A DNA stretch of 56,391 nt from a virus, in IMG/VR virus record IMGVR_UViG_3300023274_000003, positions 1 through 56,391 of that record; one strand, 5' to 3'. The notes beneath the pieces are model-generated. The model had not been told where the DNA came from. It worked only from the letters and a program-made list of their open reading frames with translations, and made no database searches. Made by a program: the position numbers and the translations under genes. Below, piece after piece: positions 1,902 through 50,576 of this stretch (position 1 is its first letter; the number at the start of each line of letters is the position of its first letter).

Positions 1902-2297
1902 TTAATATTTCTTACCGTGCTTGTATGGCCTCAATTCATTATATTTCATTTTCATTTGAATATGCCATTGCAGGTCAATATTCATATATTGCGCAATGTC
2001 CATAATCCTTATCATTGCATCGGCCAGTTCATCCTGAATAGTATTCTTTACTGACACCTCAAACTCTTGTTGAAAATACTTTTCATCTTCGCTAGATACC
2101 TCTTCATTAATATCTAGTTCTTTCAAAAAATGATTACTTCGATATATCTTGTCTTTTCTGTCTGCCTCCATTGCTTCTGATAATTCAGAAACCGTTAGCA
2201 TAAGCATTTTAGGTAAATCAAGTCCTTGTTCCCAAAAACCTTTTGCTTTGGCGTTAGAATGTATTTCTTCGGATAACTCTGCTATTGTCTTTGTCAT
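1902..2297 (-). CDS. mazG: MazG-like NTP pyrophosphohydrolase
   Basis: The 131-residue protein carries the all-alpha NTP-PPase metal-binding pattern: SELSEAMEADR (Glu38, Glu41) and DELADAMIRIMD (Glu90, Asp93). Such enzymes hydrolyse NTPs to NMP and pyrophosphate. In phages they may clean nucleotide pools or lower (p)ppGpp-type signals, but the substrate cannot be read here. The ATG lies about 14 nt after the T-run of a structured RNA (copy 1), so expression may depend on readthrough of that hairpin. Confidence 0.85.
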   Translation of the reverse strand: MTKTIAELSEEIHSNAKAKGFWEQGLDLPKMLMLTVSELSEAMEADRKDKIYRSNHFLKELDINEEVSSEDEKYFQQEFEVSVKNTIQDELADAMIRIMDIAQYMNIDLQWHIQMKMKYNELRPYKHGKKY

Positions 2298-2310: not shown

Positions 2311-2405
2311 GAAAAACCTCGCCTATCCGCTGTACGAGAGCATCAAGGCAAGGCTTTAATATTATTGGTTAAAAGATACTTATCTCGTACATAAGTCTTT
2401 TTTCG
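2311..2405 (-). ncRNA. Kissing-loop RNA, copy 1
   Basis: On the minus strand, hairpin 1 (2378-2396, stem ACTTAT/ATAAGT, with further A/T pairs outward to 2371 and 2400) has the 7-nt loop GTACGAG. Hairpin 2 (2312-2357) has a lower stem CCTTGCCT/AGGCGAGG, with one G-U pair only on this strand, and an upper GCT/AGC stem. Its 7-nt loop is CTCGTAC, the exact complement of loop 1. A T-run TTTTT follows. The MazG gene starts right after. This is the same architecture as copies at 7146-7243, 17085-17177 and 28303-28389, with different sequence. Confidence 0.7.
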
Positions 2406-6644: not shown

Positions 6645-7133
6645 TTAAATACCTAACTTTTCTTTAATTTTCTTATCGGCTTTTGCATTGATACGGTCTT
6701 CGATATTTTTATCGGTCAGTTGGTATTCAATTTTATCCGCAGCAGAGTTGATAGCATCAATAACTACTTTCATTGTAGAATTAATTTTAGACTCTGCGTT
6801 GGCAATGATTTGCGGTTTGTCTGACAAAAGTTCTGTAACGGTGTCGTTAATTACCTTCTTTATGTCAGAAGATATTTCTTTTGCTATTAAATCTTTTACT
6901 TCGTTTCTCAACTCCCATGCTTCGTAATGTCTATTTTTAGGTTTAAAAACAAGGAGTTGCATTTCCTCTTTAATCTTTGCGTCTACTATTTCTCGTGTTG
7001 TCTGATTAATAGTAGCCCCAAGCCATTTTTTAGCAAATGCTGCCGCAACGCTTTGACGAACATCAAATTCTATTTGTGAATCTCCATTTAAAAGACGTTC
7101 TAATGCTGCTAAACTGTTGATTTGAATTTTCAT
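6645..7133 (-). CDS. Conserved phage hypothetical, 162 aa
   Basis: The protein starts MKIQINSLAALERLLNGDSQ and continues with a helical, charged body. The opening (NSLAALERLLNGD...FDVRQSV..AFAKKWL) resembles a family common in Bacteroidota phages. An upstream in-frame ATG at 7163 would place the start inside the terminator-like hairpin, so ATG 7133 is chosen. The gene directly follows kissing-loop RNA copy 2. Confidence 0.65.
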   Translation of the reverse strand: MKIQINSLAALERLLNGDSQIEFDVRQSVAAAFAKKWLGATINQTTREIVDAKIKEEMQLLVFKPKNRHYEAWELRNEVKDLIAKEISSDIKKVINDTVTELLSDKPQIIANAESKINSTMKVVIDAINSAADKIEYQLTDKNIEDRINAKADKKIKEKLGI

Positions 7134-7145
7134 AGTATTATTAAA

Positions 7146-7243
7146 TAAAGAAACCAGTCCCAAAAGATGCGAGGCTTTCGAAACTGGTTCTTTGGATTTT
7201 GTCGGTTAAGACAATTTCTTGTATCTGCTCGCATTCAGATATT
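7146..7243 (-). ncRNA. Kissing-loop RNA, copy 2
   Basis: On the minus strand, hairpin 1 (7222-7241, stem TATCTG/CAGATA) has the 8-nt loop AATGCGAG. Hairpin 2 (7147-7193) has an outer stem GAACCAGT/ACTGGTTTC, an inner stem AAAG/CTTT and the 8-nt loop CCTCGCAT. ATGCGAG in loop 1 pairs perfectly with CTCGCAT in loop 2 (7 bp). TTTCTTTATTT follows hairpin 2. The promoter at 7248-7277 puts the RNA start at hairpin 1. Predicted length is about 95 nt. Confidence 0.8.
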
Positions 7244-7247
7244 AACA

Positions 7248-7277
7248 CAAATATACTCTTAATTCTTAATATTCCAA
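7248..7277 (-). promoter_or_regulatory. Promoter of kissing-loop RNA copy 2
   Basis: On the minus strand TTG (7277-7275), a 19-bp spacer and TATATTTG (7255-7248) match the consensus exactly. The start is predicted near 7242, at the first base of hairpin 1. The promoter overlaps the end of the 53-aa HTH gene. Confidence 0.8.
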
Positions 7278-15206: not shown

Positions 15207-15274
15207 ATTGGTATATATTTTAAAATTATATGCAATAATATAAATAAAGTATTTAACAAACAAATTATTTTATG

Positions 15275-15282
15275 TATATTTG
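15275..15282 (+). promoter_or_regulatory. -7 promoter box of tnpB
   Basis: TATATTTG lies 4 bases before the tnpB ATG at 15287, with no well-spaced TTG upstream. Transcription would start at or next to the ATG and give a nearly leaderless mRNA. Confidence 0.5.
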
Positions 15283-15286
15283 TGTA

Positions 15287-16384
15287 ATGAAAGTTTTTAA
15301 AACATATAAGTACAAGCTAGGTCTTTCCAAAGTACAATCTAATCAGGTTGATAAGTGGATTGGTGCATGTAGGTATGTTTATAATTTGGCTTTAGAATGC
15401 AAAATTGAAGCATGGAAGAAAAGGGTTTCGGTGTCTAAATTTGACTTAATAAATCAATTGCCATCGTTAAAAGATGTGGACTGGATAAAATCCGTTCCAT
15501 CACAAAGCCTTCAAGATGTAGTTGAGCGTTTAGATAAAGCCTATCAAAGCTTTTTCAAGGGTGGAGGATTCCCTAAATGGGCAAAAAGGGGAGAGTATAG
15601 TTCAATATTATTTAAGACTGTCTATGTGAAAGATAGTGAATTTGTCCTTCCAAAACTCGGGAAGGTCAAGGTCTATAAAGATAGAATGCCCAAAGGCAAG
15701 TTAAGTGTGGCAAAGATAACAAAAGAAGCTAACGGCTATTTTTTATCAGTAACTTTCGAGTCTGAATCAGAAAACCTCTATCCTACCGACGAGAACCAAG
15801 TAGTAGGCTTAGATATGGGTATAACATATTTTTTGACTGATTCAAATGGTGTTTTTGTTGACAATCCACGTCATACAAAAAAGTATGAAAGGAAGTTAAG
15901 AGTAAAAAACAGGGCATTAGCACGGAAGAAAAAGGGTAGCAATGGTTTTAAGGAAGCTAAGAAACAAGTTGCTAAACTTCATTCTAAAATTGCCAATGTT
16001 CGCAAAGATTTTCTACATAAACTTAGTTTCCAATATGTCAAAGAAAATTCATTAATCGTGTCTGAGGATTTGAAAGTTAAGAGCATGATTAAGTTTGGTA
16101 ATCTTTCAAAGCACATTTCGGACACAGGTTGGTCAATGTTTTTTGATATGCTAGCATACAAAAGCAAGTTTTACGAAAAGACCTATGTAAGAATTGACCC
16201 TAAATTTACCTCTCAAAAGTGTAATTCATGCGGTCATACCTGCAAAGAAAACCGGATAACTCAATCAAAGTTTCTTTGTGTAAAATGTGGGCATAATGAA
16301 AATGCAGACTTTAACGCTGCTCAAAATATTTTAGGCAAGGGCATTGTCTTAGTTCGTCAACGTGAAACATTAGTTTGTGCGTAG
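15287..16384 (+). CDS. tnpB: TnpB, RNA-guided transposon-associated endonuclease (solo)
   Basis: The 365-residue protein (from ATG 15287) has a full TnpB layout: N-terminal OrfB helix-turn-helix domain, RuvC-I GLDMGI (Asp176), RuvC-II SEDLKVK (Glu260), a CxxC...CxxC zinc finger (Cys312, 315, 331, 334) and RuvC-III NADFNAA (Asp341). All catalytic and zinc residues are present, so it looks active. No tnpA transposase is near it. TnpB is guided by an omega-RNA from the element's right end and cuts targets next to a TAM. It has inserted between a ribbon-helix-helix gene and a truncated ORF. Confidence 0.93.
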   Translation: MKVFKTYKYKLGLSKVQSNQVDKWIGACRYVYNLALECKIEAWKKRVSVSKFDLINQLPSLKDVDWIKSVPSQSLQDVVERLDKAYQSFFKGGGFPKWAKRGEYSSILFKTVYVKDSEFVLPKLGKVKVYKDRMPKGKLSVAKITKEANGYFLSVTFESESENLYPTDENQVVGLDMGITYFLTDSNGVFVDNPRHTKKYERKLRVKNRALARKKKGSNGFKEAKKQVAKLHSKIANVRKDFLHKLSFQYVKENSLIVSEDLKVKSMIKFGNLSKHISDTGWSMFFDMLAYKSKFYEKTYVRIDPKFTSQKCNSCGHTCKENRITQSKFLCVKCGHNENADFNAAQNILGKGIVLVRQRETLVCA

Positions 16385-16513: not shown

Positions 16514-17083
16514 TTAAGTTCTTTTACTATTTTTTCTTTCCCTATATGTTAGATTGTTACATTTTCTAGTTTTCAGTCTATACTCCTCTCTTATTAATAT
16601 CAATTCTTCTTTTGTTCTTCTAGTCGCTTCGAATCTTTCACAAACCTCGTCCCTTATCTTTATAGCCTCTTCAAGTGTATCATATTTTCCAAAGTACGTT
16701 TTTATACCCATTATTCGGATTCTCACTTGAAACCTATTGTTTATATTGCTTATACCAGGAGTTAAATAGCCTTTAAATATCTTTTCGTGATTAGCGTTTT
16801 CTCTGCTTGTTACAAACTCTAAATTAGATAAATAGTTGTTTGTTTTATTCAGGTCTTTATGATTAACATATGTTTTAGTCTTTTCTAAAAAAGCATTTGC
16901 CACGAGAACATGAATCCTAAATGATTTGCATCTAAGATTTACTGATAAATATCCGGTATGTTTACATAAAAAAGGTTTTAATATCAAGTTTCTTTTTATA
17001 GACTTTACGCTGCCTAATGAACTAACCAAATAAAACCCTTCGTATCCATTTACACTTTTCCAAATTTCTTCTTGATTTTTCAT
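16514..17083 (-). CDS. HNH homing-type endonuclease with NUMOD4 and AP2-like domains
   Basis: From ATG 17083 the 189-residue protein begins MKNQEEIWKSVNGYEGFYLV, a NUMOD4 motif. It continues with an HNH core (VNHKDLNKTNNYLSNLEFVT) and an AP2-like DNA-binding segment (FQVRIRIMGIKTYFGKYDTL). This is the classical architecture of free-standing phage homing endonucleases. The longer in-frame start at 17131 lies inside the kissing-loop RNA and is rejected. The gene directly follows that RNA (copy 3). Confidence 0.9.
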   Translation of the reverse strand: MKNQEEIWKSVNGYEGFYLVSSLGSVKSIKRNLILKPFLCKHTGYLSVNLRCKSFRIHVLVANAFLEKTKTYVNHKDLNKTNNYLSNLEFVTSRENANHEKIFKGYLTPGISNINNRFQVRIRIMGIKTYFGKYDTLEEAIKIRDEVCERFEATRRTKEELILIREEYRLKTRKCNNLTYRERKNSKRT

Positions 17084-17084
17084 A

Positions 17085-17177
17085 AATAAAAAAAAGATTT
17101 GGCTTTCGAGGTCGTGGTCTCTACTTGCCAAATCTTTAAGATTAATATCTTTTTACTTGCAATCCACGACAATTGCG
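17085..17177 (-). ncRNA. Kissing-loop RNA, copy 3
   Basis: On the minus strand hairpin 1 (17159-17176, GCAAT/ATTGC) has the 8-nt loop TGTCGTGG. Hairpin 2 (17093-17137) has a perfect 11-bp stem AAAGATTTGGC/GCCAAATCTTT, an upper stem GAG/CTC and the loop ACCACGAC. GTCGTGG pairs perfectly with CCACGAC (7 bp). TTTTTTTT follows. The promoter at 17181-17210 places the start at hairpin 1. The HNH gene ATG is at 17083. Confidence 0.8.
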
Positions 17178-17180
17178 ATA

Positions 17181-17210
17181 CTAAATTAAGAGAATAATTG
17201 ATAAAATCAA
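17181..17210 (-). promoter_or_regulatory. Promoter of kissing-loop RNA copy 3
   Basis: On the minus strand TTG (17210-17208), a 19-bp spacer and TAATTTAG (17188-17181) match with one base off the TAnnTTTG consensus. The predicted start is near 17176, the first base of hairpin 1. Confidence 0.6.
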
Positions 17211-21577: not shown

Positions 21578-21602
21578 TGTTTTTATATTAGTTAATGTTA
21601 GT

Positions 21603-21684
21603 TGTCACGAAGGGAATCGAACCCAAAACTTACACCTGTATTTATATCCGACTCGAACGGAGAGTTTACACCAAGTACGTGACA
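21603..21684 (-). tRNA. Degenerate class II tRNA, anticodon CGA (Ser)
   Basis: On the minus strand a 7-bp acceptor (TGTCACG/CGTGACA) encloses a T-arm GGGTTCGATTCCC, an anticodon stem TCCG/CGGA with loop TTCGAGT (anticodon CGA at 21655-21653) and a long variable region of about 20 nt, as in tRNA-Ser. The D-arm has no clear stem, and two T-arm pairs are mismatched. No CCA is encoded. It is either a decaying tRNA or a tRNA-like RNA. Confidence 0.6.
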
Positions 21685-28290: not shown

Positions 28291-28298
28291 TATATTTG
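28291..28298 (+). promoter_or_regulatory. -7 promoter box of kissing-loop RNA copy 4
   Basis: TATATTTG lies 4 nt after the stop of the zinc-ribbon gene. The predicted start (about 28302-28305) is just before hairpin 1 of the RNA. No TTG is found at the usual distance. Confidence 0.6.
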
Positions 28299-28302
28299 TT
28301 TA

Positions 28303-28389
28303 ACAGTTCATTTGAAAAAGGTAGGATGTTTTCAAATGGAAATAATCACCTTTTAAGCCTTGCCAAATCCTACTGGTCAAGGCTTTTTA
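28303..28389 (+). ncRNA. Kissing-loop RNA, copy 4 (no gene downstream on the same strand)
   Basis: Hairpin 1 (28307-28340) has a perfect 10-bp core CATTTGAAAA/TTTTCAAATG and the loop AGGTAGGATG. Hairpin 2 (28355-28385) has AAGCCTTG/CAAGGCTT, an upper CCA/TGG stem and the 8-nt loop AATCCTAC. GTAGGAT (28321-28327) pairs perfectly with ATCCTAC (28367-28373). TTTTT follows. The next plus-strand gene is 1.3 kb away, so this copy reads as a free small RNA of about 87 nt or an operon terminator with extra structure. Confidence 0.85.
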
Positions 28390-36198: not shown

Positions 36199-38415
36199 AT
36201 GGCAGGACTAGGCAACTTTACATTAACCGTTGGGGTAGATACTTCAGCATTGACAAGGGGCTTAGCCAGTGCATCTTCACAACTTACTGCCTTTGCCTCT
36301 AGGGCTGAATCAACAGGAACCCGACTATCTCTTGCAATCTCTACACCTTTAGCCCTTTTAGCTAAGAGGGCTATTGAGTCGTATGGTGAACTAGAAGCCC
36401 TTCGTATGTCTTTACGTACAGTAGAAGGGTCAGCCGCTAACACAGCCCGCAGACTAGCCGTATTAAACGAAGTAGCTAAATTGCCAGGGGTAGGCTTTAA
36501 AGAAGCGATTCAGGGTGATGTCAGACTTCGTACGGTCGGGATAAGTGCTGACCTTGCCAAGCGTTCGATGATGGCCTTTGGGAATGCGATTGCGATTGCC
36601 GGAGGGGGTAAAGCGCAATTTGAATCGGTAATAAATCAGTTGACACAGATGTCCACAAGGTCAAGTGTGCTGATGGAAGATTTAAAACCAATCACTACCG
36701 CCGTTCCTGCCGTTTCACGGGTTCTTCAGCAGCTATACGGTACGATTGATACTGAAGTTATTTCGGCTAAGCTGAAAAAGACCGGAACCTCTACCAAAGA
36801 GTTTATTGCGCAGATAACGGCCGAACTGGAAAAGCTACCACCAGCTACGGGAGGTGTAAAGAATGCGATTGAAAACTTAGGCGATAGCGTTTTTAAAACC
36901 TTTGCGCAAGTAGGTGAGACTATCAACAAGAATGTTGGTGTAAAAAACTGGCTTGATAGTATTGGAAGTTCTTTAGAAGAAGCGGCCAGTGGCTTTGCCA
37001 GATTATCCCCTGAGGCACAGAAAGCTATTTTAGCTATAAGTGCCGTAGCAATCGCTTTACCTCCTTTTTTACTTTTAGCCGGAACGATTCTTCCTGCCTT
37101 ACAAACGGGCTTTTTAGCCTTGCTAAGTCCCATCAATCTGGTAGGAGTTGCTTTAGGGGCTGCGGCAATTTACGCAGTTTCCCATTGGAACAAGGTTGAA
37201 GATATTATCTACCGGATAAAAACTAATTTTCAAAGAACTCTGGCTGACATAGGTTTAGGCATTGCGGGAGTATTAAGAGACACAGAAGGGGCGGCTGACA
37301 TTGCCAGTGCATATGTTAAAAGCAGAGGAATTAACCCTGAATCGCAACGAGACGCTTCGGCGCGTGGGCGTTTCATGTACAAAAAGGGGGGGCAACAGGA
37401 TTTGGCTAATTTAGCCCGCATCAAGCAGGAAGAAGAAATAGCTAAAAAGCAAAAAGACATAGCCGCCTCCGCCTCGTCAGTCAGCACAAAACAGGAACAA
37501 GACAGAATAAAAGCCATTAAAGATTTGTCTGATAATCTATTAAAAGACAGACAAAGGGCAGAGGTAGAAGCAATAGCTAACAAGGCTGAAAGGGCAAGGG
37601 CTGGCGCGCAAATGCAGTACAATGAAGAAGTAAAAGCGTATGCTGACTCTATCAATGCTTTAAAGGCAAGTGTAGCAGAGAAGAAACCACTATGGGAAGG
37701 GTATACACAATTTGTTATAGCAAAAGACAAGGAGTTAAAACAAAAACTAAGAGAGAACGACCTACTATCGGAGTTTACCAGTAAGCCATTAAAGAGTATT
37801 GGTTCAGACGATAATTCTAAAGATACCCAAGCCCGTATTTCAGCCATTATGGGTATCTCTCCCGATGGCGTAGATAAATACGCCGTTTCTCTAAATCAGC
37901 GCATGAAAAACGCTGCCAAGTACCTACAGGAACAAGGGGAGAGCAAGATGGATACTAATAATCTTGAACAGTTTTTAGGACTAGCGGAAGGAACAATTAC
38001 GGGGGATACTTTTGCTAAATATGCTGAACAGGCTAACATCTTAATAGATGCCAATCAGCGTATTAAAGAAAGCTTTCAGAACATGGCAGCCGATTCGTTA
38101 GCCTCGCTTTCGATTGTGGTGGGGGAGATGATAGCAGGAACGGCTACAATTGAAGATTTAGCCAATACTTTACTTTCAAGCATATCCCAATCTTTAGCGC
38201 AAATAGCTAAACAAAATATTCTAATCGGACTATTCACGGGTAACGTGGGCATGGTAGCACAAGGCGTATTAGCCGGAATAGGGGCAGGTATTACCGGCGG
38301 ACTTGCCAAGAAACAACAGCAAAATCAGCAAAACTCACAAGGAAACAGGACAGTAGTCAGGGGTCAGGAAATAGAAACAGTCAGAGCGAGGTACGATACG
38401 ATTAAAAACTTTTAA
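36199..38415 (+). CDS. Tape measure protein
   Basis: The 738-residue protein has MAGLGNFTLTVGVDTSALTR, a typical tape measure start, long Ala/Lys-rich helices, a hydrophobic central segment (about residues 275-320, KAILAISAVAIALPPFLLLA) that may insert in membranes, and a Gly/Ala-rich C-terminus. Length is short for the class, suggesting a tail of around 110 nm by the usual 1.5 Angstrom per residue. Its stop overlaps the next ATG as TAATG. Confidence 0.92.
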   Translation: MAGLGNFTLTVGVDTSALTRGLASASSQLTAFASRAESTGTRLSLAISTPLALLAKRAIESYGELEALRMSLRTVEGSAANTARRLAVLNEVAKLPGVGFKEAIQGDVRLRTVGISADLAKRSMMAFGNAIAIAGGGKAQFESVINQLTQMSTRSSVLMEDLKPITTAVPAVSRVLQQLYGTIDTEVISAKLKKTGTSTKEFIAQITAELEKLPPATGGVKNAIENLGDSVFKTFAQVGETINKNVGVKNWLDSIGSSLEEAASGFARLSPEAQKAILAISAVAIALPPFLLLAGTILPALQTGFLALLSPINLVGVALGAAAIYAVSHWNKVEDIIYRIKTNFQRTLADIGLGIAGVLRDTEGAADIASAYVKSRGINPESQRDASARGRFMYKKGGQQDLANLARIKQEEEIAKKQKDIAASASSVSTKQEQDRIKAIKDLSDNLLKDRQRAEVEAIANKAERARAGAQMQYNEEVKAYADSINALKASVAEKKPLWEGYTQFVIAKDKELKQKLRENDLLSEFTSKPLKSIGSDDNSKDTQARISAIMGISPDGVDKYAVSLNQRMKNAAKYLQEQGESKMDTNNLEQFLGLAEGTITGDTFAKYAEQANILIDANQRIKESFQNMAADSLASLSIVVGEMIAGTATIEDLANTLLSSISQSLAQIAKQNILIGLFTGNVGMVAQGVLAGIGAGITGGLAKKQQQNQQNSQGNRTVVRGQEIETVRARYDTIKNF

Positions 38416-41400
38416 TGGCATATACTACTAAATACATTGCACAAGCCTACGGGCTTTCTTCTACCCCCTGGCGGGTTGAATTACTGGTAGATGGATACGA
38501 CGACGACCCTATCCAGTTGGATTTGGTTGAAAACGGCGTTCTGATTGGTTATGACCGTGAAGAAAACCGTTTCAATCCTATCTATAGCAGGTATGCGATT
38601 ATTTCCCTAAAAGTTACGGGTGTATTTAATTTAGACACCCTACAGTTTGATGATGAACGCAAATTCCAGGTCAATATCTATAAGGATAATAGTCTGGAGT
38701 TTGTTGGGTGGTTAGTGCCTTTTTACTCTACTGAAGCCTTCGAGGATACCTCTATTACGACCTTAGATGTAATGGCTAAGGATACGATTAAACAGTTGTC
38801 GAATGTAGATTTTTACAACCAGTACCCCGAACGTATTAGTAACAAGCAGTCGTTTAAGGAAGTAATCAGTCTTGGGTTAAAAGAATTAGGCTATCCCTTA
38901 TATCTGGAAATCTACTATAATAAGTACGATGTTGCGATGTATAAAGAGGCGATGGACTGCCCTTTGTCTCAACTGTATTTTGATATTTACCGCCTGCAAA
39001 ACGAAGACGGAACATGGATGAACTTTTATGAGTGTATCCAGTTGCTACTCGCTGAGCATGATTTAAGATTATTTCAGGCACAGGGTAAGTGGATTATTAT
39101 TTCCCCGATTGAAGTAGTAGACGGCTCGGTATCAGGTAGAAGATTTGAACCGGAATATGGGTTCTATATGTCTACAGTAACCCTTGATACTAATCAGCTT
39201 ATTCATAAAGGCGGACTACCTATTAAAAGAAATGCCGTTAGAAGAAAAGATATTCCTATTCAGTCCTTTACGGGGATGTACGAATATGGACTACTTTCTA
39301 ATCTGGTTTTAAACGGAGACTTGCTACGGTTTACAGGAGACACCCCCGACTACTTTACTAAAGGCGGCGACTGGTCGGAAGGCGAATTAACCGATATTGT
39401 TGGCGGGGGAGTAATGATTGACCGTACTTACATACGTAAACTGTTAGAAATCCCTACCGAAACTGCACCCGACCCTATTCTCTTGAAGAATCAGTTTCTT
39501 ATCTCTGACCAGATAGATATCACTTCCTTAACAGCCCTTAGGTTTAAGGCTGATGTGTACGGCGATGATGATATAGACGAAATAAGAATAGCCCTTAGAA
39601 TGACTAAAACCTCATCGCCTGGGGCTGTGTTTTATGTAGACGGTGCGGGAAATGTATACAACGTTCCGATGTCTATTTATGTACAGAAAGGAACGGAAAA
39701 CAAAGCCTTTTCGATTGATGTATCGTGGAACAGGGAAGACCCTGCCTTTGATTTTAACCTTCGTTATGCCAACGTTTTAGAAATTATCCTTTATCCTGGC
39801 ATAAGATACCGGACAGGTGAACCTTCTAATTTACACGTAAAATTCAGAAACTTAGAATTAACCGGAACGCCGTATGTATATGACGCTAATTATGTAGGCA
39901 GAAAATACCAGTACACCAATACGGATTTACCTCACTCTAAAAAAGAAGAGGTATTCAACTTCGGTTTTCAGGACAACGTTATAGACACGCTGTCAGACTT
40001 CAAGTTAAGAAGTAGTATGTTTGTGGGGGAGACTATTATCAAAACCACCCAATGGAAAAGAACTACTGAATCTACTTATAGAAGCCTGATAGAATCAGTT
40101 CTGATCGACAGATTAGTGCTGACTTCAAGGTTTGGTGACATTTTAGAGGCAAGTATTAAAGGGTATCTGAGTTTCTTTCAGACCCCGCAACTAACGGTTG
40201 GCAGTAAAAGATTCCTGATTTTATTCGCCGAATACAACCTTCAGGACGATTCTACCGAAGTCGTTTTAACCGAACTCTATACCAACGAAGTAGATGTTTC
40301 TTATAAATTAATCGACGTATTTAAGGATAAGGAAATAGATGTAAGCGACGGAACGAGTACCTCACAAACAGGAGTAGGGGAGAATTTCGACCCGCCAATT
40401 ACTTCTAAGGGGGGAGGAACTACGTATGGAGGTCTTTACCCGGACGGAGGAATTGATTCGCTCCCTAGCGACACAATCGACCCTAAAGCAAAGAACCCGG
40501 GCAAACTTTTAATCGGCAGGGCGCATGCATTATTATTGGAATTGGGAAACCTTGATAGCCTGACTAAGATTTTCGGGCGTTTTGGACTCCTGAATGAAGA
40601 TAATTTTTTAGGGGAGTTCAAGACCGCCGGAATTACTTCTGATCGGGAGTATACCTTCCCTGATAGAGACATAATTATAAATGATTATGACTATTTAGTC
40701 AATACGCCCGACTTTTACCCTCCTTTAGTAGATGGAACAGCTAACCATCTGGTTAGATTCGGGGCAATGGGAGATGCATTAGTAGATTCATTAATTATTG
40801 ATACAGGAACAAATGTAGGCATAGGTAGTTTGTTTAATATTGACCCTATTACGGGTGGATTAGTAGGAACATCGGCAGAATTTACTACACTAAACGTGCT
40901 GAACACTTCGACCTTTAACGATACGGCAACTTTTGAGAATTATATCTTATTGCCAGACTTACCAACCGATCCTTACCATGCAACCAATAAAGCCTATGTC
41001 GATTCTTTAGCCTTTGTAAAAAGAGGGGACACGGTAAAAACGATTGCATTAAGCAGTGTTACCAAGTCAGGCACGCAGACAGTTTCAGGATATGCTTTAA
41101 GCGCAGGCGAATACGTATTATTAACGAATCAGGCAAGTCCGGCAGATAATGGCGTATGGGTAGTAGCTAGTGGGGCATGGTCACGTTCCACTACGGATGA
41201 TTCAGATGCTGAAATCAGGGGGGCTTATCATTATATTACTGACGGGACTTATGCCAATCAAAGATATATAAATACCAATACATCAGCCATTACCCTCAAT
41301 ACGACCCCGATTACTTACGGGATAGACTTTGGGGCAGAAACCGATCCGGTATGGACGGCGTTTAAGACCACTAACGCGATTACCAGTACCTCGGTAACCC

Positions 41401-44400
41401 ATTGGAACGATGCTTATAGCTGGGGCGATCATGCCGATGCGGGCTATGCTTTGGCGACTAGAACGATAACTATTAATGGAACCAGTGGACAAATTGCCAG
41501 TTCGGCAAGCAGCCAGGATTTAAGTGCAAACCGTACATGGACATTAAGTTTAATAGCTACAGGCGTAACGGCCTCGACTTATAAAAGTGTCACAGTTGAC
41601 ATTTACGGCAGAGTAACGGCCGGAACCAATCCGACTACACTCGCAGGCTATGGGATTACAGACGCCTTGCCTTCCACAGCCATTAACGGCACAATAAATC
41701 AGGTAGCTAAATTTGCTTCTTCTGATAGCATAGAAGATTCAAGTATTACTTCGGTAGGTGCAAGTGTGGGGATTAACAGATCGTCGCCTGATTCCTCTTA
41801 TGCCTTAGACGTGAACGGTTCTGCATTGCTAGGCGGTGCTTTAATAGGTAATTCGTCTTTAGGCGTAGGGATTGCAAACTACTTAGGGACTTCTCCCCGC
41901 ATCGGGGCGATTGGTGGCACGAATCTTGATTTTAATTCTCCAGCTAATTACGTATGGTACACAGGTGGGGGTACCGAAAGGTTCAGGTACGATTCAAATG
42001 GTTTTAAGGTTGGAACGGCAATTAACCCCAGTAGTTTAATCGTTGTAGGAAACGTAGAATATAGCGGTCTCTTATATGTAGGCTCCACGCCGTCAAGTGG
42101 AACCAACGGACAATTCTTAAAACGCGTGGCAACATCCAACGCATGGGCAAATTTAGCTATTTCTGATGTGGCAACTTTGCAAACATCATTAGACGGAAAG
42201 CAACCCTTAGACGGCGATTTAACAGCTATTAGTGCTTTGAGTTCTACGGGATTTCTAAAGAGAACGGGTACGAATACATGGGATTTAGATTCGTCTACCT
42301 ATCTTTCTGCTTCATCCGGCACTACCAACAAAGTTGCAAAGTTTACATCGTCTACGGCACTGGGGGATTCCAGGATTACTGATAACGGAACGTCAGTGGG
42401 AATAGACAAATCCTCGCCCGATGCGGGGTTTGCTTTAGATGTGAACGGGGCAATTCTAATGACTGGATCGGTATCAGGAACAACTTCATTAGGCGTTGCC
42501 ATAGGGAACTACTTAGGTACTACGCCAAGAATCGGGTCTTTAGGCACGCACCTTACTTTCAACTCGTCTGGAGACTATATCTGGTATACTGCGGGGTCTA
42601 TAGAAAGATTCAGATACGATTCAGGAGGTTTTCAGGTAGGAACCGTTACCAACCCCTCTACGATTTCAGTAACCGGACAGTTATCGTATACAGGATATTT
42701 ATACACCGCTTCTGGATACGGCACAGATGGGCAGTTTTTAAAACGTACTTCGTCTTCTAATGCGTGGACTGCTATAGGGATTAGCGACGTAACGTCTTTG
42801 CAGTCCACCCTTGACGCAAAACAGCCCCTAGATGGTGACCTTACCGCTATTGCTGCTTTATCTACCGTAGGGTTCGCTAAACGTACCGGAACAAATGCGT
42901 GGGCAATAGACACAAATAGCTATCAATTGCTTGATGCTGACCTTACCGCTATTGCCGCCCTTACAGGTACAGGGATTCTTAAACGTACCGGAACGAATAT
43001 ATGGGCATTAGATACGGGTACTTATCTTACATCTACGGGTACGGCTAATTATATCTCTAAATTCACCTCTTCGTCGGCTATAGGGAACAGTGTATTATAC
43101 GAAGACTCTGGAAGTATAGGTATTAACGCTACAACCTTAACCGGATATGCACTTAGAATTACCAAAGACTTTCCGACTTCTACATCATACGGGATAAGTG
43201 TAGAGGGATCAGCTACAGTAGCCTCAACAAATGCTTATGGATATCATAGTGCGCTAGGTTCTGGTGCAGACGGAAACCCTACAAATTTAAGACACTTTTA
43301 CGCTACCCAGTCCCCCTTAGTTGGTGCAATTCAAAATCAGGCAGGATTCTATGCCGGATTAAGTTTGGTAGGGGCTACTAATAATTATGGATTTTACGGG
43401 AATATCCCTATCAGTGGCAATTCATGGAATTTGTACATGGCAGGAACAGCTAATAACTACCTGAACGGGAATCTATGGATAGGCACTACTTCTTCGACCT
43501 ATAAATTAGACGTAAATGGTACAGTAAGAATTACGGGGGCTTTTGAACTTGATTCTACCCTGATAGATACAGCTAACAGCGCAGGTGCATCTGGATATGT
43601 TTTAAGTTCAACCGGCACGGGTACTTCGTGGATTAATTTAGCTACGATTTATCAACCCCTAGACGGTGATTTGACGGCAATCGCCGCTTTATCAGCCAAT
43701 GGATTTGCCAAGCGTACAGGCACTAACACATGGACAATTGACACAAGTAGTTATCTTCCTACGTCATCGATAAGCGGAACAAACAACCGTGTAGTTAAAT
43801 TTACTTCAGCTACTACGATAGGGGATTCGCAGATATTCGACAATGGAACGACCGTAGGGATAGGCAGAGGAAATTCTCCTGATACCGGATTTACACTCGA
43901 CGTGAACGGGCCTATATTATCAAGTGCCGCAGTGTACGGGTCTACTTCGTTAGGTGTTGCTATCGGACTTTATTTAGGCGTAACGCCCAGAATAGGCAGT
44001 ATAGGGGGGACTACATTAGATTTCAATTCGCCCGCAAATTACATTTGGTATACAGGCGGCTCTACTGAAAGATTCCGTTATGACTCATCAGGATTTAAAA
44101 TAGGGACAACGGGTAATCCATCGACACTAACAGTCGTAGGGACTGTATATTACAATGATTTGCTGTACGTTGGTAGTTCGCCATCGTCAGGGACTGACGG
44201 ACAGTACCTAAAACGTACATCGTCTTCTAACGCATGGGCTAATATAATTATAGGGGATGTCACAGGGCTACAAACCGCCCTTGATGCTAAGCTATCCGGC
44301 TCTGGCACCACTAATTATTTGCCAAAATATACGGGTAGTCTTGTATTGGGGAATAGCCTTATTAATGACAATGGAAGTGGTATAGGAATTGGCACAACTG

Positions 44401-47400
44401 CCACCGCCGGACGTGTTTTGTTGATTACACAAGCGATAACCGGGAACGTACAGTCGTATGGCACGTTAATCTCCAGTGAAATTCAATCAGGCGTTACAAC
44501 GTCGGTTGATTATTTCAGAACAAGCACAAGCACTCAAGCCGCATCTTTTACGCTTGGAAGTCTTACGCACTATCATGCATTGCAGGGCGTATTCGGTGCT
44601 GGAAGTAGTGTAACGAGTCAATACGGCTTCTGGGTAGATTCCTCCATGACTGGAGCGTCTTCAATCAATGCCGCTTTCAGAGGGTCATTAGCTAAATCTT
44701 CTACTACATGGAATACTTACATGGACGGTGCCGCTAATAACTATATGGCAGGCTCTTTGGGTATTGGCTCTGTAGGTTTGACACAGTTTAATTTGCGTAT
44801 CAGCAAGATTATCACAGGGAACGTTAATAGTTATGGTGTATATAACTCAGGGGATGTGCAAGCGGATGTAACCTCTAGTGCGAGGTATTTTAACACGGCT
44901 GTAAGTACGCAGGCAGCTAGTTTTGGGTTGGGGGCGATATATCACTATTCGGCAACGCAAGGCACTTTTGGCGCAGGAAGTACAGTATCTGACCAAATCG
45001 GGTATTATGTGGATAGTACATTGACTGGGGCTACGAGAAATTACGGATTCTACGGGAGTATAGCGTCCGGCACCGATAGATGGAATTTGTACATGGCAGG
45101 AACAGCCCATAATTACCTGAAAGGTAATTTGTGGATAGACACCTTATCAAGCTCATACAAACTTGACGTAAATGGCACAGCAAGAGTAACGGGGGCTTTT
45201 GAACTGGACTCTACACTAATTGATACGTCAAATAGTGCAGGCACATCTGGATATGTTCTCACCTCAACCGGAACAGGAATCTCATGGATAAATGGGTCTA
45301 CCGTATTCCAGCCCTTGGATGGTGATTTAACAGCTATTGCAGCCCTTTCTACTAATGGATTTGCTAAGCGGACAGGCACAAATACATGGACGATTGACAC
45401 AAATAGTTACCTACCCACTTCGTCTATCGCAGGGACAAATAACCGTGTCACTAAATTTACTTCAACATCTACCATAGGAGATAGTCAGATTACGGATAAC
45501 GGCACCAGTGTAGGGATTAACAGAACAAACCCCGATGCGGGGTTTGTTTTAGATGTGAACGGGGCAATGCTTACCAGCGGTTTTGTTGTTGGTACGGTTT
45601 CGCTAGGCATCGCAATAGCAAATTATTTAGGCACTACCCCAAGGATAGGTAGCTTGGGCGGAACAACCTTAGAGTTTAATTCGCCTGCCAATTATATTTT
45701 CTACACAGGGGGTAGTACCGAACGATTCAGGTATGATAGTTCTGGCTTCCAGGTTGGAACAGGGGCTAATCCGTCTCAGATATCAGTAAAAGGCGATATT
45801 GTCTACAACGGACTTCTTTATGCTGGCAGTTCGCCCTCTAGTGGCAGTAGCGGGCAATTCTTAAAAAGAGGGGCTTCTACGAACGCATGGGCAACTATGT
45901 CCATTAGCGACGTAACGTCTTTGCAGACATCACTGGATGCTAAGTTAAGTATAGCTAATATTAATTCGTACCTATACCCTCCTGCCTCACACACGCATAC
46001 GATTTCTGACACAACAGGTTTGCAAACAGCATTAGATAATAAGCAACCCCTTGATGGAGACTTAACATCTATTGCTGCATTGACCGGAACGGGTTATGCC
46101 AAAAGGACAGGCACTAACACATGGACAATTGATAATAGTTCATTCGCCTTATCTTCGTCTATATCCGGCACTACCAACAAAGTTGCAAAGTTTGTCTCGT
46201 CTACTACTATTGGGGATTCTATTATCACTGATAACGGGACATCGGTGGGCATTAATCAACCTTCCCCTAATTCGTTATACAAATTAGATGTAGGCGGCAG
46301 TGTCAAGGTAGACGATATGAATGTAGGAGAGTCGATATACTACCAAATGTCTATGTATATGGGGCCAGCCTTGAGTAATTATGCCCGAATTGCCACTGGT
46401 GCAGCTACTCTTGAACACTTAGCTACGTCTAATTTTACCTGGTCGTATTACAGCAGCGGGATTGTTCAGAAAATGAAACTTACCCCAACCGGGTTAAAGA
46501 TAGGCGCAGGGAATGCCGCCTATGGGCTTGATGTATCTGGCGACGTGTCATATAGCGGTCTTCTGTATGTAGGGAGTAGTCTGTCAAGTGGAACTAATGG
46601 GCAATTTCTAAAAAGAACCGCGAGTAATAATACGTGGTCTACGTTAGCTATCGCAGATACGACAGGACTTCAGGCTGCCTTAGATACTAAAGCGTCTCTG
46701 GTTGATTTTAATACACTTTGGGACGCAAGATGGACAACCACTCAAGCCGCAGGGGTCACTTTTGGCGGAGAGGTATTAATTTCAGGGGTATTATTGGTTG
46801 ATAACGAGGCAATAATTAACAATGATTTACAGGTAGGGGGGTTACTGGCAGGATTTAATGGATTTAACCTTACAGGGCACTTTAACGACAATACGGGGTC
46901 AGCAGGAACATCGGGCTATGTCCTTTCGTCTACCGGAACGGCTACTGCATGGATTAATCCAACTTCCAGTCTACTTACCGGATACGCCATAGGGGGGGAT
47001 ACCGCAATATCTGCGACTGATTCAATTTTACAGGCATTCCAGAAGGTGCAAGGTCAATTAAGTGCAAAAGTATCTGGAACGCTTAATTATTTACCAAAGT
47101 TTAGTTCTACCACTGCTATAGGTAATAGTATTATTTATGAAAATGGTGGGGTAGGAATAGGTACAACCTCGGTAACAGCCTACGGGCTGAGGCTAACAAG
47201 CAATATTACAGGGGGGCTTAGTGCCTATGGTATCGAATCAAGCGGACAGGTACAAACGGGAGTTACGACCTTAGCGTCTTATTTCAGAACGAGCGCATCG
47301 ACGATTACGGGATTTACCCTTACTACCTTAAATCACTTTTCGGCAGTACAAGGGACGCTGTCTGGAACCGTAACTTCGCAGATGGGATTTAGTGCAAATT

Positions 47401-50400
47401 TCTCATTAACCGGGGCTACTAATAATTACGGGTTTTACGGGAATATAGCCGCCGCCACTAATTCATGGAACTTTTACGGGAACGGAACGGCTAATAATTA
47501 CATGGCCGGGGCGTTAGGGATAGGTAGTACATCATTAACAGGCTTTTCCCTTGTTTTAGGCAAGACAATAACAGGGGCTACTTCGTCATTTGGTATATTG
47601 AATGGGGGTCAAATCCAGTCGGACGTTACGGTTTTAGCAGAATATAACAGAACAACTGCCTCTACTGCGGCGGCATCATTTACCCTCCCGAATCTCATAC
47701 ACTATCACGCAACTCAAGGGACTTTCGGGGCAGGTAGTTCAGTGACTAATCAGTATGGCTTTCAGGTTAGTTCAAATATGACAGGGGCAACAAATGTAAA
47801 CATTGCATTCAGGGGGGCGCTTGCATCTGCTGCTACCAACTGGAACGCATACATGGACGGAACTGCTAATAACTACATGGCAGGTTCTTTGGGTATTGGT
47901 AATAATACGCTTACCCAGTACAATTTACGGATTAGTAAAAACATTACAGGCGCTCCTACTTCCTTTGGGGTTTATAATTCCGGCGACGTTCAATCTGGGG
48001 TCACGTCGAATGCGGTTTATAACAGAACCGTTGCCTCAACGGCAGCAGCATCATTTACGCTTTCACAGCTTTATCACTATCAGGCAACGCAAGGCACATT
48101 CGGGGCAGGTAGTACCGTGACAACGCAAGTAGGCTATTACGTTGATAGCACGACCACTGGAGCTGCCAATAACTATGGTTTTTTTGGCGCGATAGCGTCG
48201 GGGTCTGGCAGATGGAATATTTATATGTCCGGAACAGCTAATAACTACCTGAACGGGAATCTATGGATAGGCACCACATCATCTTCTTATAAGCTGGATG
48301 TAATAGGGACCAGTCATTTCTCACAGGATAGCACTTTCGACGCTAATATTGTCGTACCAACTGCGCCTACATTAAGTAGTCACGCCACCAACAAGGCTTA
48401 TGTAGACTCTTTGTCTTTTATAAAAAGGGGTGATGTAGTAAAAACCATATCCTTAACCAATATTACATTATCTGGCGCACAGACTATCAGCGGATACGCC
48501 GCAGTAGCAACGGATTATGTGTTAGTAGCCGGGCAGACACTTCCGGCGCAAAATGGTGTATATGTGGTAGCAGCAGGCACATGGACGCGTAGCACAACCA
48601 ATGATTCAGATGCTGAAATCAGGGGGGCTTATCACTTAATCACCAATGGCACATACGCCAATCAAAGGTACATTAATACTAATGCGTCTACGATTACAGT
48701 CAATACAACAGGAATTACGTATGCTTTGGATTTTGGGGCAGAAACAGACCCTGTCTGGAGTGCATTTAAATCTGCCAACCTGATTACGGACACTTCGATA
48801 ACTAACTGGAACAGTGCTTATGGATGGGGGAATCACGCATCCGCAGGGTACGCACTGGGCGCAACAACTATTACAATCAATGGAACATCTGGCAGGGTAA
48901 CGAGTTCGGCTGGGGCGCAAGATTTATCAGGCAATAAAACATGGGCATTAGATTTGGCTTCAGGAATAGCAACGCCAGGGACTTACAAGTCTGTTACGGT
49001 AGACACTTACGGACGGGTTACGGCAGGCACAAACCCTACTACTTTAGCTGGGTACGGAATCGTAGACGCATTGGGAACTGCTGCCATCACAGGCACAGCT
49101 AACAAGGTAGTTAAATACGCCACGACTTCGACCTTAGGGGACTCTCAAATCACCGACAACGGAACGTCGGTCGGAATTAACCAGTCGTCACCTAACGCCT
49201 CGTATAAGCTAGATGTGAACGGTTCGGTTTTAGCTACGAGTGGGGTATTTGGAACAGTAACTGATTATATTAAAACTTCATTTTCGACTAACGCTATTCT
49301 GGAATCTTCTGCCGCCCTTGATATTAAAGGAACAACAACGTCCTTTTTCAGTAGTGGCACACAGAAAATGTCCATCAATTCGACTGGGGTAAGGATTGGC
49401 ACAAGTACAGCCTCTTATCCTTTGGATATCTTAGGGAATTTTAACTATACAGGACTTTTACACGTAAGCGGGTCTAATGGAACATCGGGCCAATTCCTGA
49501 AAAGAGGCGCAAGCACAAACGCATGGGCCACACTTGCGGTAGCGGATATATCCGATATTGCGACAGCATATCAGGCTAAACTTTCAGGAACAGGGTTTAT
49601 TAAGATTAGCGGCACAACTATTTCTTATGACAATTCTACCTATCTGACCACTGCTACGGCTACGGCTACTTATCAGCCTTTGCTTGATGATGGCACAGGA
49701 CTTGTACGTTCAACCGCTGGGGCAATTACCTACGATAACACCTCCTACTTATCTACCTCAACAGCGGCCAGCACGTATCAGTTGATTTTAGGTGGTACAG
49801 GCTTTGTTAAGTCGGTCGCAGGGGTAATCAGTTACGATACCAGTACGTATTTAACTACCGCTTCGGCCTCGTCTACTTACCTGACTTCTACCATCGCAGC
49901 TAGTACATATCTATCTATTTCTAACGCTACTGCTACGTATGCCACCAAAGAAGATGCGGTATTACTTCTGACAGATGAAGGCGAAAGAGGATTTAAACTC
50001 TATTCCGATACAGACAAGGCGTTCGGGGAGGCATTTGTATTTATAGATTCAGACACAGGGGTGTTCGGTCTTCATGCTTATAGAAAAGACAGTGCTTTGG
50101 CTGACATGGTTCAGTATGGCATTCAGATTGACAAGGACGGACTGGTGTATCATTTGATGGACGACACCAACCGATACAGATTCCTGACCGAACTTGATTT
50201 GCTGAATCTAACATGGAGTGGCGGGAAAGTAGATAAGGATATTTTAATGGATAGTTACAATACTATATTCTGGAATAAAACAGGGACTGACTACGATGCA
50301 AGAATGTATGGATATAAAAGTGTGGGCGGACTCAGGGGCTTACAAATAGAGTCCTCGTATGACATAACCATAGGTGGCAAGTGGGTTGAGTTATTATCTG

Positions 50401-50576
50401 ACAAGTATCCAGGGGGTGCAGTAAACGATGATAGCGGCGTAGTCATTGACGGGGTACTTTTTGATTTACAGGGTGTTTCGGCTTTGGTAGGACAAACGGC
50501 TAAGTTTCAGATTACTAACAGTTCGCCCGTAAGTAGTGGTAAGTACCGATATAAAGCAACTTTAATAGCAGGGTAA
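38415..50576 (+). CDS. Giant tail tip/fibre protein, 4053 aa
   Basis: One uninterrupted frame of 4053 codons fills 12.2 kb, about 22% of the genome. Residues 1 to about 640 form a non-repetitive tail-tip-like domain (RVELLVDGYDDDP, FVGWLVPFYS). From about 855 a module with TNKAYVDSL and SDAEIRGAYH starts. Six DGDLTAIAAL-type units, several NYLGTTPRIGSLG-type units and many ANNYLNGNLWIGTTSS units follow. A second TNKAYVDSL module lies at about 3322. The last 130 residues are unique and not a recognisable S74 chaperone. It likely combines a baseplate hub with a very long fibre for receptor binding. Confidence 0.85.
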   Translation: MAYTTKYIAQAYGLSSTPWRVELLVDGYDDDPIQLDLVENGVLIGYDREENRFNPIYSRYAIISLKVTGVFNLDTLQFDDERKFQVNIYKDNSLEFVGWLVPFYSTEAFEDTSITTLDVMAKDTIKQLSNVDFYNQYPERISNKQSFKEVISLGLKELGYPLYLEIYYNKYDVAMYKEAMDCPLSQLYFDIYRLQNEDGTWMNFYECIQLLLAEHDLRLFQAQGKWIIISPIEVVDGSVSGRRFEPEYGFYMSTVTLDTNQLIHKGGLPIKRNAVRRKDIPIQSFTGMYEYGLLSNLVLNGDLLRFTGDTPDYFTKGGDWSEGELTDIVGGGVMIDRTYIRKLLEIPTETAPDPILLKNQFLISDQIDITSLTALRFKADVYGDDDIDEIRIALRMTKTSSPGAVFYVDGAGNVYNVPMSIYVQKGTENKAFSIDVSWNREDPAFDFNLRYANVLEIILYPGIRYRTGEPSNLHVKFRNLELTGTPYVYDANYVGRKYQYTNTDLPHSKKEEVFNFGFQDNVIDTLSDFKLRSSMFVGETIIKTTQWKRTTESTYRSLIESVLIDRLVLTSRFGDILEASIKGYLSFFQTPQLTVGSKRFLILFAEYNLQDDSTEVVLTELYTNEVDVSYKLIDVFKDKEIDVSDGTSTSQTGVGENFDPPITSKGGGTTYGGLYPDGGIDSLPSDTIDPKAKNPGKLLIGRAHALLLELGNLDSLTKIFGRFGLLNEDNFLGEFKTAGITSDREYTFPDRDIIINDYDYLVNTPDFYPPLVDGTANHLVRFGAMGDALVDSLIIDTGTNVGIGSLFNIDPITGGLVGTSAEFTTLNVLNTSTFNDTATFENYILLPDLPTDPYHATNKAYVDSLAFVKRGDTVKTIALSSVTKSGTQTVSGYALSAGEYVLLTNQASPADNGVWVVASGAWSRSTTDDSDAEIRGAYHYITDGTYANQRYINTNTSAITLNTTPITYGIDFGAETDPVWTAFKTTNAITSTSVTHWNDAYSWGDHADAGYALATRTITINGTSGQIASSASSQDLSANRTWTLSLIATGVTASTYKSVTVDIYGRVTAGTNPTTLAGYGITDALPSTAINGTINQVAKFASSDSIEDSSITSVGASVGINRSSPDSSYALDVNGSALLGGALIGNSSLGVGIANYLGTSPRIGAIGGTNLDFNSPANYVWYTGGGTERFRYDSNGFKVGTAINPSSLIVVGNVEYSGLLYVGSTPSSGTNGQFLKRVATSNAWANLAISDVATLQTSLDGKQPLDGDLTAISALSSTGFLKRTGTNTWDLDSSTYLSASSGTTNKVAKFTSSTALGDSRITDNGTSVGIDKSSPDAGFALDVNGAILMTGSVSGTTSLGVAIGNYLGTTPRIGSLGTHLTFNSSGDYIWYTAGSIERFRYDSGGFQVGTVTNPSTISVTGQLSYTGYLYTASGYGTDGQFLKRTSSSNAWTAIGISDVTSLQSTLDAKQPLDGDLTAIAALSTVGFAKRTGTNAWAIDTNSYQLLDADLTAIAALTGTGILKRTGTNIWALDTGTYLTSTGTANYISKFTSSSAIGNSVLYEDSGSIGINATTLTGYALRITKDFPTSTSYGISVEGSATVASTNAYGYHSALGSGADGNPTNLRHFYATQSPLVGAIQNQAGFYAGLSLVGATNNYGFYGNIPISGNSWNLYMAGTANNYLNGNLWIGTTSSTYKLDVNGTVRITGAFELDSTLIDTANSAGASGYVLSSTGTGTSWINLATIYQPLDGDLTAIAALSANGFAKRTGTNTWTIDTSSYLPTSSISGTNNRVVKFTSATTIGDSQIFDNGTTVGIGRGNSPDTGFTLDVNGPILSSAAVYGSTSLGVAIGLYLGVTPRIGSIGGTTLDFNSPANYIWYTGGSTERFRYDSSGFKIGTTGNPSTLTVVGTVYYNDLLYVGSSPSSGTDGQYLKRTSSSNAWANIIIGDVTGLQTALDAKLSGSGTTNYLPKYTGSLVLGNSLINDNGSGIGIGTTATAGRVLLITQAITGNVQSYGTLISSEIQSGVTTSVDYFRTSTSTQAASFTLGSLTHYHALQGVFGAGSSVTSQYGFWVDSSMTGASSINAAFRGSLAKSSTTWNTYMDGAANNYMAGSLGIGSVGLTQFNLRISKIITGNVNSYGVYNSGDVQADVTSSARYFNTAVSTQAASFGLGAIYHYSATQGTFGAGSTVSDQIGYYVDSTLTGATRNYGFYGSIASGTDRWNLYMAGTAHNYLKGNLWIDTLSSSYKLDVNGTARVTGAFELDSTLIDTSNSAGTSGYVLTSTGTGISWINGSTVFQPLDGDLTAIAALSTNGFAKRTGTNTWTIDTNSYLPTSSIAGTNNRVTKFTSTSTIGDSQITDNGTSVGINRTNPDAGFVLDVNGAMLTSGFVVGTVSLGIAIANYLGTTPRIGSLGGTTLEFNSPANYIFYTGGSTERFRYDSSGFQVGTGANPSQISVKGDIVYNGLLYAGSSPSSGSSGQFLKRGASTNAWATMSISDVTSLQTSLDAKLSIANINSYLYPPASHTHTISDTTGLQTALDNKQPLDGDLTSIAALTGTGYAKRTGTNTWTIDNSSFALSSSISGTTNKVAKFVSSTTIGDSIITDNGTSVGINQPSPNSLYKLDVGGSVKVDDMNVGESIYYQMSMYMGPALSNYARIATGAATLEHLATSNFTWSYYSSGIVQKMKLTPTGLKIGAGNAAYGLDVSGDVSYSGLLYVGSSLSSGTNGQFLKRTASNNTWSTLAIADTTGLQAALDTKASLVDFNTLWDARWTTTQAAGVTFGGEVLISGVLLVDNEAIINNDLQVGGLLAGFNGFNLTGHFNDNTGSAGTSGYVLSSTGTATAWINPTSSLLTGYAIGGDTAISATDSILQAFQKVQGQLSAKVSGTLNYLPKFSSTTAIGNSIIYENGGVGIGTTSVTAYGLRLTSNITGGLSAYGIESSGQVQTGVTTLASYFRTSASTITGFTLTTLNHFSAVQGTLSGTVTSQMGFSANFSLTGATNNYGFYGNIAAATNSWNFYGNGTANNYMAGALGIGSTSLTGFSLVLGKTITGATSSFGILNGGQIQSDVTVLAEYNRTTASTAAASFTLPNLIHYHATQGTFGAGSSVTNQYGFQVSSNMTGATNVNIAFRGALASAATNWNAYMDGTANNYMAGSLGIGNNTLTQYNLRISKNITGAPTSFGVYNSGDVQSGVTSNAVYNRTVASTAAASFTLSQLYHYQATQGTFGAGSTVTTQVGYYVDSTTTGAANNYGFFGAIASGSGRWNIYMSGTANNYLNGNLWIGTTSSSYKLDVIGTSHFSQDSTFDANIVVPTAPTLSSHATNKAYVDSLSFIKRGDVVKTISLTNITLSGAQTISGYAAVATDYVLVAGQTLPAQNGVYVVAAGTWTRSTTNDSDAEIRGAYHLITNGTYANQRYINTNASTITVNTTGITYALDFGAETDPVWSAFKSANLITDTSITNWNSAYGWGNHASAGYALGATTITINGTSGRVTSSAGAQDLSGNKTWALDLASGIATPGTYKSVTVDTYGRVTAGTNPTTLAGYGIVDALGTAAITGTANKVVKYATTSTLGDSQITDNGTSVGINQSSPNASYKLDVNGSVLATSGVFGTVTDYIKTSFSTNAILESSAALDIKGTTTSFFSSGTQKMSINSTGVRIGTSTASYPLDILGNFNYTGLLHVSGSNGTSGQFLKRGASTNAWATLAVADISDIATAYQAKLSGTGFIKISGTTISYDNSTYLTTATATATYQPLLDDGTGLVRSTAGAITYDNTSYLSTSTAASTYQLILGGTGFVKSVAGVISYDTSTYLTTASASSTYLTSTIAASTYLSISNATATYATKEDAVLLLTDEGERGFKLYSDTDKAFGEAFVFIDSDTGVFGLHAYRKDSALADMVQYGIQIDKDGLVYHLMDDTNRYRFLTELDLLNLTWSGGKVDKDILMDSYNTIFWNKTGTDYDARMYGYKSVGGLRGLQIESSYDITIGGKWVELLSDKYPGGAVNDDSGVVIDGVLFDLQGVSALVGQTAKFQITNSSPVSSGKYRYKATLIAG
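41197..41230 (+). repeat. 34-bp exact repeat in the fibre gene, partner at 48601-48634
   Basis: The bases encoding DSDAEIRGAY are identical over 34 bp at 41197-41230 and 48601-48634, although the rest of the two modules has diverged more. Such an island may come from recent recombination within the gene. Confidence 0.75.
43443..43486 (+). repeat. 44-bp exact repeat in the fibre gene, partner at 48231-48274
   Basis: The 44-bp stretch coding for TANNYLNGNLWIG is identical at 43443-43486 and 48231-48274, 4.8 kb apart. It shows ongoing duplication or gene conversion of fibre modules. Confidence 0.75.

Follow-up and report, generated by a model that had tools for sequence, protein, structure and literature searches.

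The window analysed here is a complete IMG/VR virus record of 56,391 bases, from a phage whose terminase and portal resemble those of Bacteroidota phages. It contains four copies of an RNA element composed of two hairpins whose loops are exactly complementary over 7 nt, the second hairpin being followed by a T-run in the manner of an intrinsic terminator (Table 1). Copy 4 lies 5 nt behind the stop codon of the last gene of the portal-MuF operon and has no gene on its strand behind it, whereas copies 1 to 3 end directly before start codons. Copies 2 and 4 have a TATATTTG box, matching the Bacteroidota -7 consensus TAnnTTTG (PMC7366714), within 20 nt of hairpin 1. The four loop pairs, which we refer to as keys, are mutually non-complementary, with at most 4 nt in a row.

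Table 1. Copies of the two-hairpin element, the genes behind them and other features of the window.
Position	Strand	Feature	Basis
28291-28298	+	Copy 4, TATATTTG, Bacteroidota -7 promoter box	Sequence; consensus from PMC7366714; same box at nearly all relatives
28307-28340	+	Copy 4, hairpin 1, perfect 10-bp core CATTTGAAAA/TTTTCAAATG; loop 1 GTAGGAT at 28321-28327	Sequence; thermodynamic descriptor and energies
28355-28388	+	Copy 4, hairpin 2 (terminator-like), AAGCCTTG..CAAGGCTT; loop 2 ATCCTAC at 28367-28373; T-run to 28388	Sequence; thermodynamic descriptor; whole element is the best hit of covariance model R1
2311-2405	-	Copy 1, hairpin 1 (loop GTACGAG 2384-2390), terminator hairpin (loop CTCGTAC 2332-2338), T-run; ends just before the start codon at 2297; promoter box degenerate	Sequence; energies
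7145-7255	-	Copy 2, TATATTTG box, hairpin 1 (loop ATGCGAG 7228-7234), terminator hairpin (loop CTCGCAT 7167-7173), T-rich tail; before the start codon at 7133	Sequence; thermodynamic descriptor
17091-17185	-	Copy 3, hairpin 1 (loop GTCGTGG 17164-17170), terminator hairpin (loop CCACGAC 17111-17117), T8; before the start codon at 17083; box TAATTTAG has one mismatch	Sequence; thermodynamic descriptor
1902-2297	-	Gene behind copy 1, MazG-like pyrophosphatase	PHROG 9236, E 9e-40; tblastn
6645-7133	-	Gene behind copy 2, unknown function, relative of Sphingomonas phage PAU gp279	Homology searches
16514-17083	-	Gene behind copy 3, NUMOD4-HNH endonuclease	Pfam NUMOD4, 3e-14; PHROG 59
15272-16384		Transposase-like gene (PHROG 506), on the opposite strand next to the HNH gene of copy 3	PHROG 506
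21601-21684		tRNA-Ser (CGA) gene in the early region	
38415-50576		One open frame of 4053 codons in the late region	

An earlier note, made from the sequence alone, had described these four copies as a family of kissing-loop RNAs with terminator-like ends, and that observation is confirmed. A descriptor that adds the hairpin 1, hairpin 2 and kissing energies and a T-run score ranked copies 2, 3 and 4 first in the window, at -41.8 to -42.5. The next site in the window scored -31.6 and the best site in 30 dinucleotide-shuffled windows scored -35.9; the descriptor was written after the copies were known, but the shuffles were scanned with the same descriptor. Copy 1 was missed by the seed filter of the scan, although its parts are comparable (hairpin 2, -19.9 kcal/mol; kissing interaction, -12.6 kcal/mol). 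No Rfam 15 family was matched: the window gave no hits at or above the gathering threshold, and element-sized searches gave only sub-threshold matches.

The same architecture is found in relatives. Searches of viral contigs with the portal, MazG-like and HNH proteins gave few or no useful relatives, but the terminase found 80 viral loci at 52-72% identity. Scans of these loci gave the same architecture with other keys in the loci L043 (GCTCTCA), L044 (GTGGACG), L014 (GTGCAG) and L032 (TTCGCA), and in a group with the scaffold GACGAGCCGC, the GACG group, to which pattern scans added further members. The nearest relative, 72% identical in the terminase, has three elements in 20 kb, with the keys GGTCAAG, GGTGAGA and GTACGAA, the last before a KilAC antirepressor gene. 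The genes behind the elements of the relatives include BT4734/PriCT-2/VapE primase-helicase, DUF6291, MT-A70 methyltransferase, DUF3223 and HNH genes. In L057, L066, L070, L100, L106 and other loci of the GACG group the same key occurs before different first genes (DUF6291, primase, MT-A70 methyltransferase), replication modules being exchanged behind a constant leader. When an exact box and a score below -32 were required, 13 sites were found against 0 in shuffled relatives. The copy 4 locus has no syntenic counterpart, because the relatives share little besides the terminase. DNA searches of phages and plasmids with the GACG leader found nothing. No element was found in 535 kb of Bacteroidota chromosome, and covariance-model hits in 395 Bacteroidota genomes showed no convincing combination of box, hairpin, kissing loops and terminator, and look like ordinary terminators.

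Cultured phages also carry the element. Flavobacterium phage vB_FspS_mumin6-4 has two, one at the head of the helicase-primase operon and one before a NUMOD4 endonuclease gene. The first stretch is matched at 80% identity or more by 46 records of Mumin- and Lillamy-type phages, and the five of these that were read carry the element. Mumin has the loop pair GTGGAACG/CGTTCCAC and lillamy has GTGAGACG/CGTCTCAC, in a stretch that is 92% identical. The F. columnare phage FCV-1 has GTAGTGC/GCACTAC before its HNH gene. In filifjonk and lillamy both the HNH gene and its leader are missing, so that in the FspS phages leader and gene are present or absent together and behave as one cassette. The element is nevertheless not an obligatory part of HNH genes, since the typical form was not found before several other NUMOD4-HNH genes. 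NUMOD4-HNH genes of Parabacteroides, Bacteroides and Polaribacter phages (loci L241, about 590-690; L242, about 600-690; L238, about 580-690; L239, about 600-700) also sit behind a TATATTTG-like box and a folded leader with a T-run, but these are of other designs, for example the crossing AACGGGGA/TCCCCGTT and GCAACC/GGTTGC of PD491P1. No convincing element was found in phages 11b, phi18:2, P12024L or phi46:1. The paper on the Mumin- and Lillamy-type phages (PMC7077304) describes the isolates as virulent and does not contain the words terminator, promoter or RNA-seq.

Covariation indicates that the kissing helix is under selection. In an alignment of 21 GACG-group leaders, the structure of two hairpins plus loop-loop helix has 98.1% standard pairs, compared with 79.0+-1.1% in shuffles and 31-45% in slid controls, with 109 double-change cells against 33+-4 and a covariation score of 0.507 against 0.152. 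The kissing helix itself is 100% paired, with both-side changes at 6 of its 7 pairs. The sequences are related, and the cells are consequently not independent events, but there are eight distinct loop 1 types, some of which differ by one compensated pair in near-identical backbones: GTAGGAG/CTCCTAC versus GTAGCAG/CTGCTAC, and TTCGCAG/CTGCGAA versus TTCGCAC/GTGCGAA. The mumin and lillamy loop pairs are another such case. G-U pairs are common in hairpin 1, so it acts as RNA, and a DNA-level role as a cruciform was set aside for this reason. A covariance model built from these relatives without the kissing pairs, model R1, found copy 4 of the window as its best hit in 235 kb (E about 1.6e-5, a rough value) and one element of the nearest relative. 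The earlier note had named such a model search, and pairing conservation in relatives, as a possible refutation, and the family passed both. The ordinary explanation, that these are chance pairs of hairpins in front of ordinary terminators, draws some support from the position of copy 4 just behind an operon end, where a terminator is expected, but it is refuted by the covariation of the loops and opposed by the shuffle controls, the recovery of copy 4 by model R1 and the presence of the element in cultured phages; we regard it as most improbable.

An unusual feature of the family is the hypervariability of the key. Between aligned leaders of different loop 1 type the promoter region is 91% identical, stem 2 is 93% identical, the downstream sequence is 89-99% and the upstream sequence mostly 83-95% identical, but hairpin 1 is only 51% and loop 2 only 49% identical. 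Two places some 40 nt apart have therefore changed in concert while everything around them stayed. This is more than cis pairing alone seems to require, and it is the main reason to consider recognition between molecules. Within the contigs searched the key occurs only in the leader, apart from one chance coding match, so a partner in trans would have to be another copy of the same leader.

The earlier note's reading of the element is partly supported. It was right about a family of functional kissing-loop RNAs with terminator-like ends, about covariation and about the absence of a named family, but it best read copy 4 as a free small RNA, and this is not supported as the general case. Its statement that there is no gene on the same strand for 1.3 kb is right for copy 4 only, and it missed the start codons behind copies 1 to 3. 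In copies 1 to 3, in the relatives and in cultured phages, the element is the 5' leader of a gene whose start codon lies about 3-50 nt after the T-run, with a constant order of box, hairpin 1, terminator, T-run and ATG. A regulated terminator, the last of the roles listed in the note, fits best. Copy 4 alone remains compatible with a free RNA, having promoter box and terminator but no gene behind it. A free, trans-acting small RNA for which downstream genes are incidental could also be argued from the expected stability of the compact double hairpin and from the hypervariable loops, which are typical of RNAs that are read in trans. However, start codons lie directly behind nearly all other copies, the two loops are complementary to each other and so are both occupied in the folded RNA, and no third copy of the key was found as a trans target in the contigs searched, one chance coding match apart. 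We consider this explanation unlikely as a general account.

We propose, with moderate confidence, that the element is a phage 5' leader attenuator, a self-kissing terminator leader. In this model, transcription starts a few nucleotides after the TAnnTTTG box and hairpin 1 folds first; the terminator hairpin then emerges and its loop pairs over about 7 nt with the loop of hairpin 1. Much of the RNA would end at the T-run as a compact RNA of about 85-110 nt, and the rest would read through into the gene right behind it, loop-loop pairing being the controlled step. The start codon is sometimes only 3-12 nt behind the T-run, so the closed form should also hinder translation. Linkers of 11-34 nt seem long enough for all three helices to form in one molecule. 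What the analysis establishes is the anatomy, including an apparent promoter-proximal intrinsic terminator between promoter box and gene, the position before start codons, and selection on the kissing helix. The start and end of the RNA, termination and read-through and their control, the assumption that pairing favors the closed, terminated state, and the idea that the key was diversified so that each leader answers only to itself are inferences from sequence alone. The terminator stems of the GACG group are strong by themselves (about -24 to -27 kcal/mol), so it is not evident what kissing would add to termination, and the imperfect promoter boxes of copies 1 and 3 and the lack of a gene behind copy 4 also count against the model. 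At copy 4 the same RNA would be a free leader RNA and could also serve as the terminator of the operon.

Two other modes of action have some support. The kissing complex could be the binding site of a phage or host protein that sets termination or translation, as Rop binds the ColE1 RNAI/RNAII complex, whose fully complementary loops of about 7 nt resemble those found here; geometry is conserved in the leaders whereas sequence is not. However, no common partner gene was identified next to the elements, and a protein does not by itself explain why the key is hypervariable, so this is an improbable alternative. The ColE1 complex also forms between two RNAs from opposite strands, rather than within one RNA. 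Still less likely is a put-like RNA that modifies RNA polymerase so that it reads through its own and later terminators. HK022 putL is an RNA of about 70 nt with two stem-loops just behind an early promoter (PMC9378689), similar in size and position, but put RNA is not described there as having kissing loops or a terminator of its own, and nothing but pairing is conserved across the groups of leaders.

The nearest working precedent is the CI RNA of satellite phage P4, in which a leader-encoded RNA of the same transcript stops transcription before the replication genes through base pairing with leader sequences (PMC4825925); here too a leader precedes primase-helicase operons. P4 CI RNA is a processed, antisense-acting RNA that pairs with seqA and seqC, whereas the present leaders have two 7-nt loops within one leader, an apparent intrinsic terminator and several unrelated downstream genes, and Mumin-type phages are described as virulent (PMC7077304). 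The C4 RNA of phages P1 and P7 (Rfam RF01695) comes from the leader of ant and has short complementary segments in the same transcript that set immunity specificity, and one element here precedes a KilAC antirepressor gene; however, C4 has a different architecture and acts on translation, and its Rfam model was not matched. Gifsy-1 IsrK is a short prophage RNA that ends at a Rho-independent terminator with read-through into a downstream mRNA (PMC4825925), but no kissing-loop family or hypervariable key was found in its description there. We do not claim membership in the P4 CI RNA family or any other named family. The family is absent from Rfam, was not found in the papers searched, and has been found so far only in phages of Bacteroidota type; its anatomy is that of an attenuator, and the hypervariable, self-complementary key is unusual.

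A more speculative possibility, doubtful on present evidence but not excluded, is that the key is a self-complementary barcode. The released leader RNA would act in trans on nascent leaders that carry the same key, so that each phage, and each operon, counts its own copies and ignores or shuts out relatives with another key, like an incompatibility determinant encoded on the sense strand.

These leaders add an RNA family to phages of Bacteroidota, whose gene control is little known, with a clear structural rule, that the terminator loop kisses an upstream loop, and with cultured carriers in which it can be tested. The hypervariable yet always matching loop pair is an unusual evolutionary signature and makes self/non-self recognition between co-infecting phages directly testable. 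The leaders could also serve as orthogonal transcription switches.
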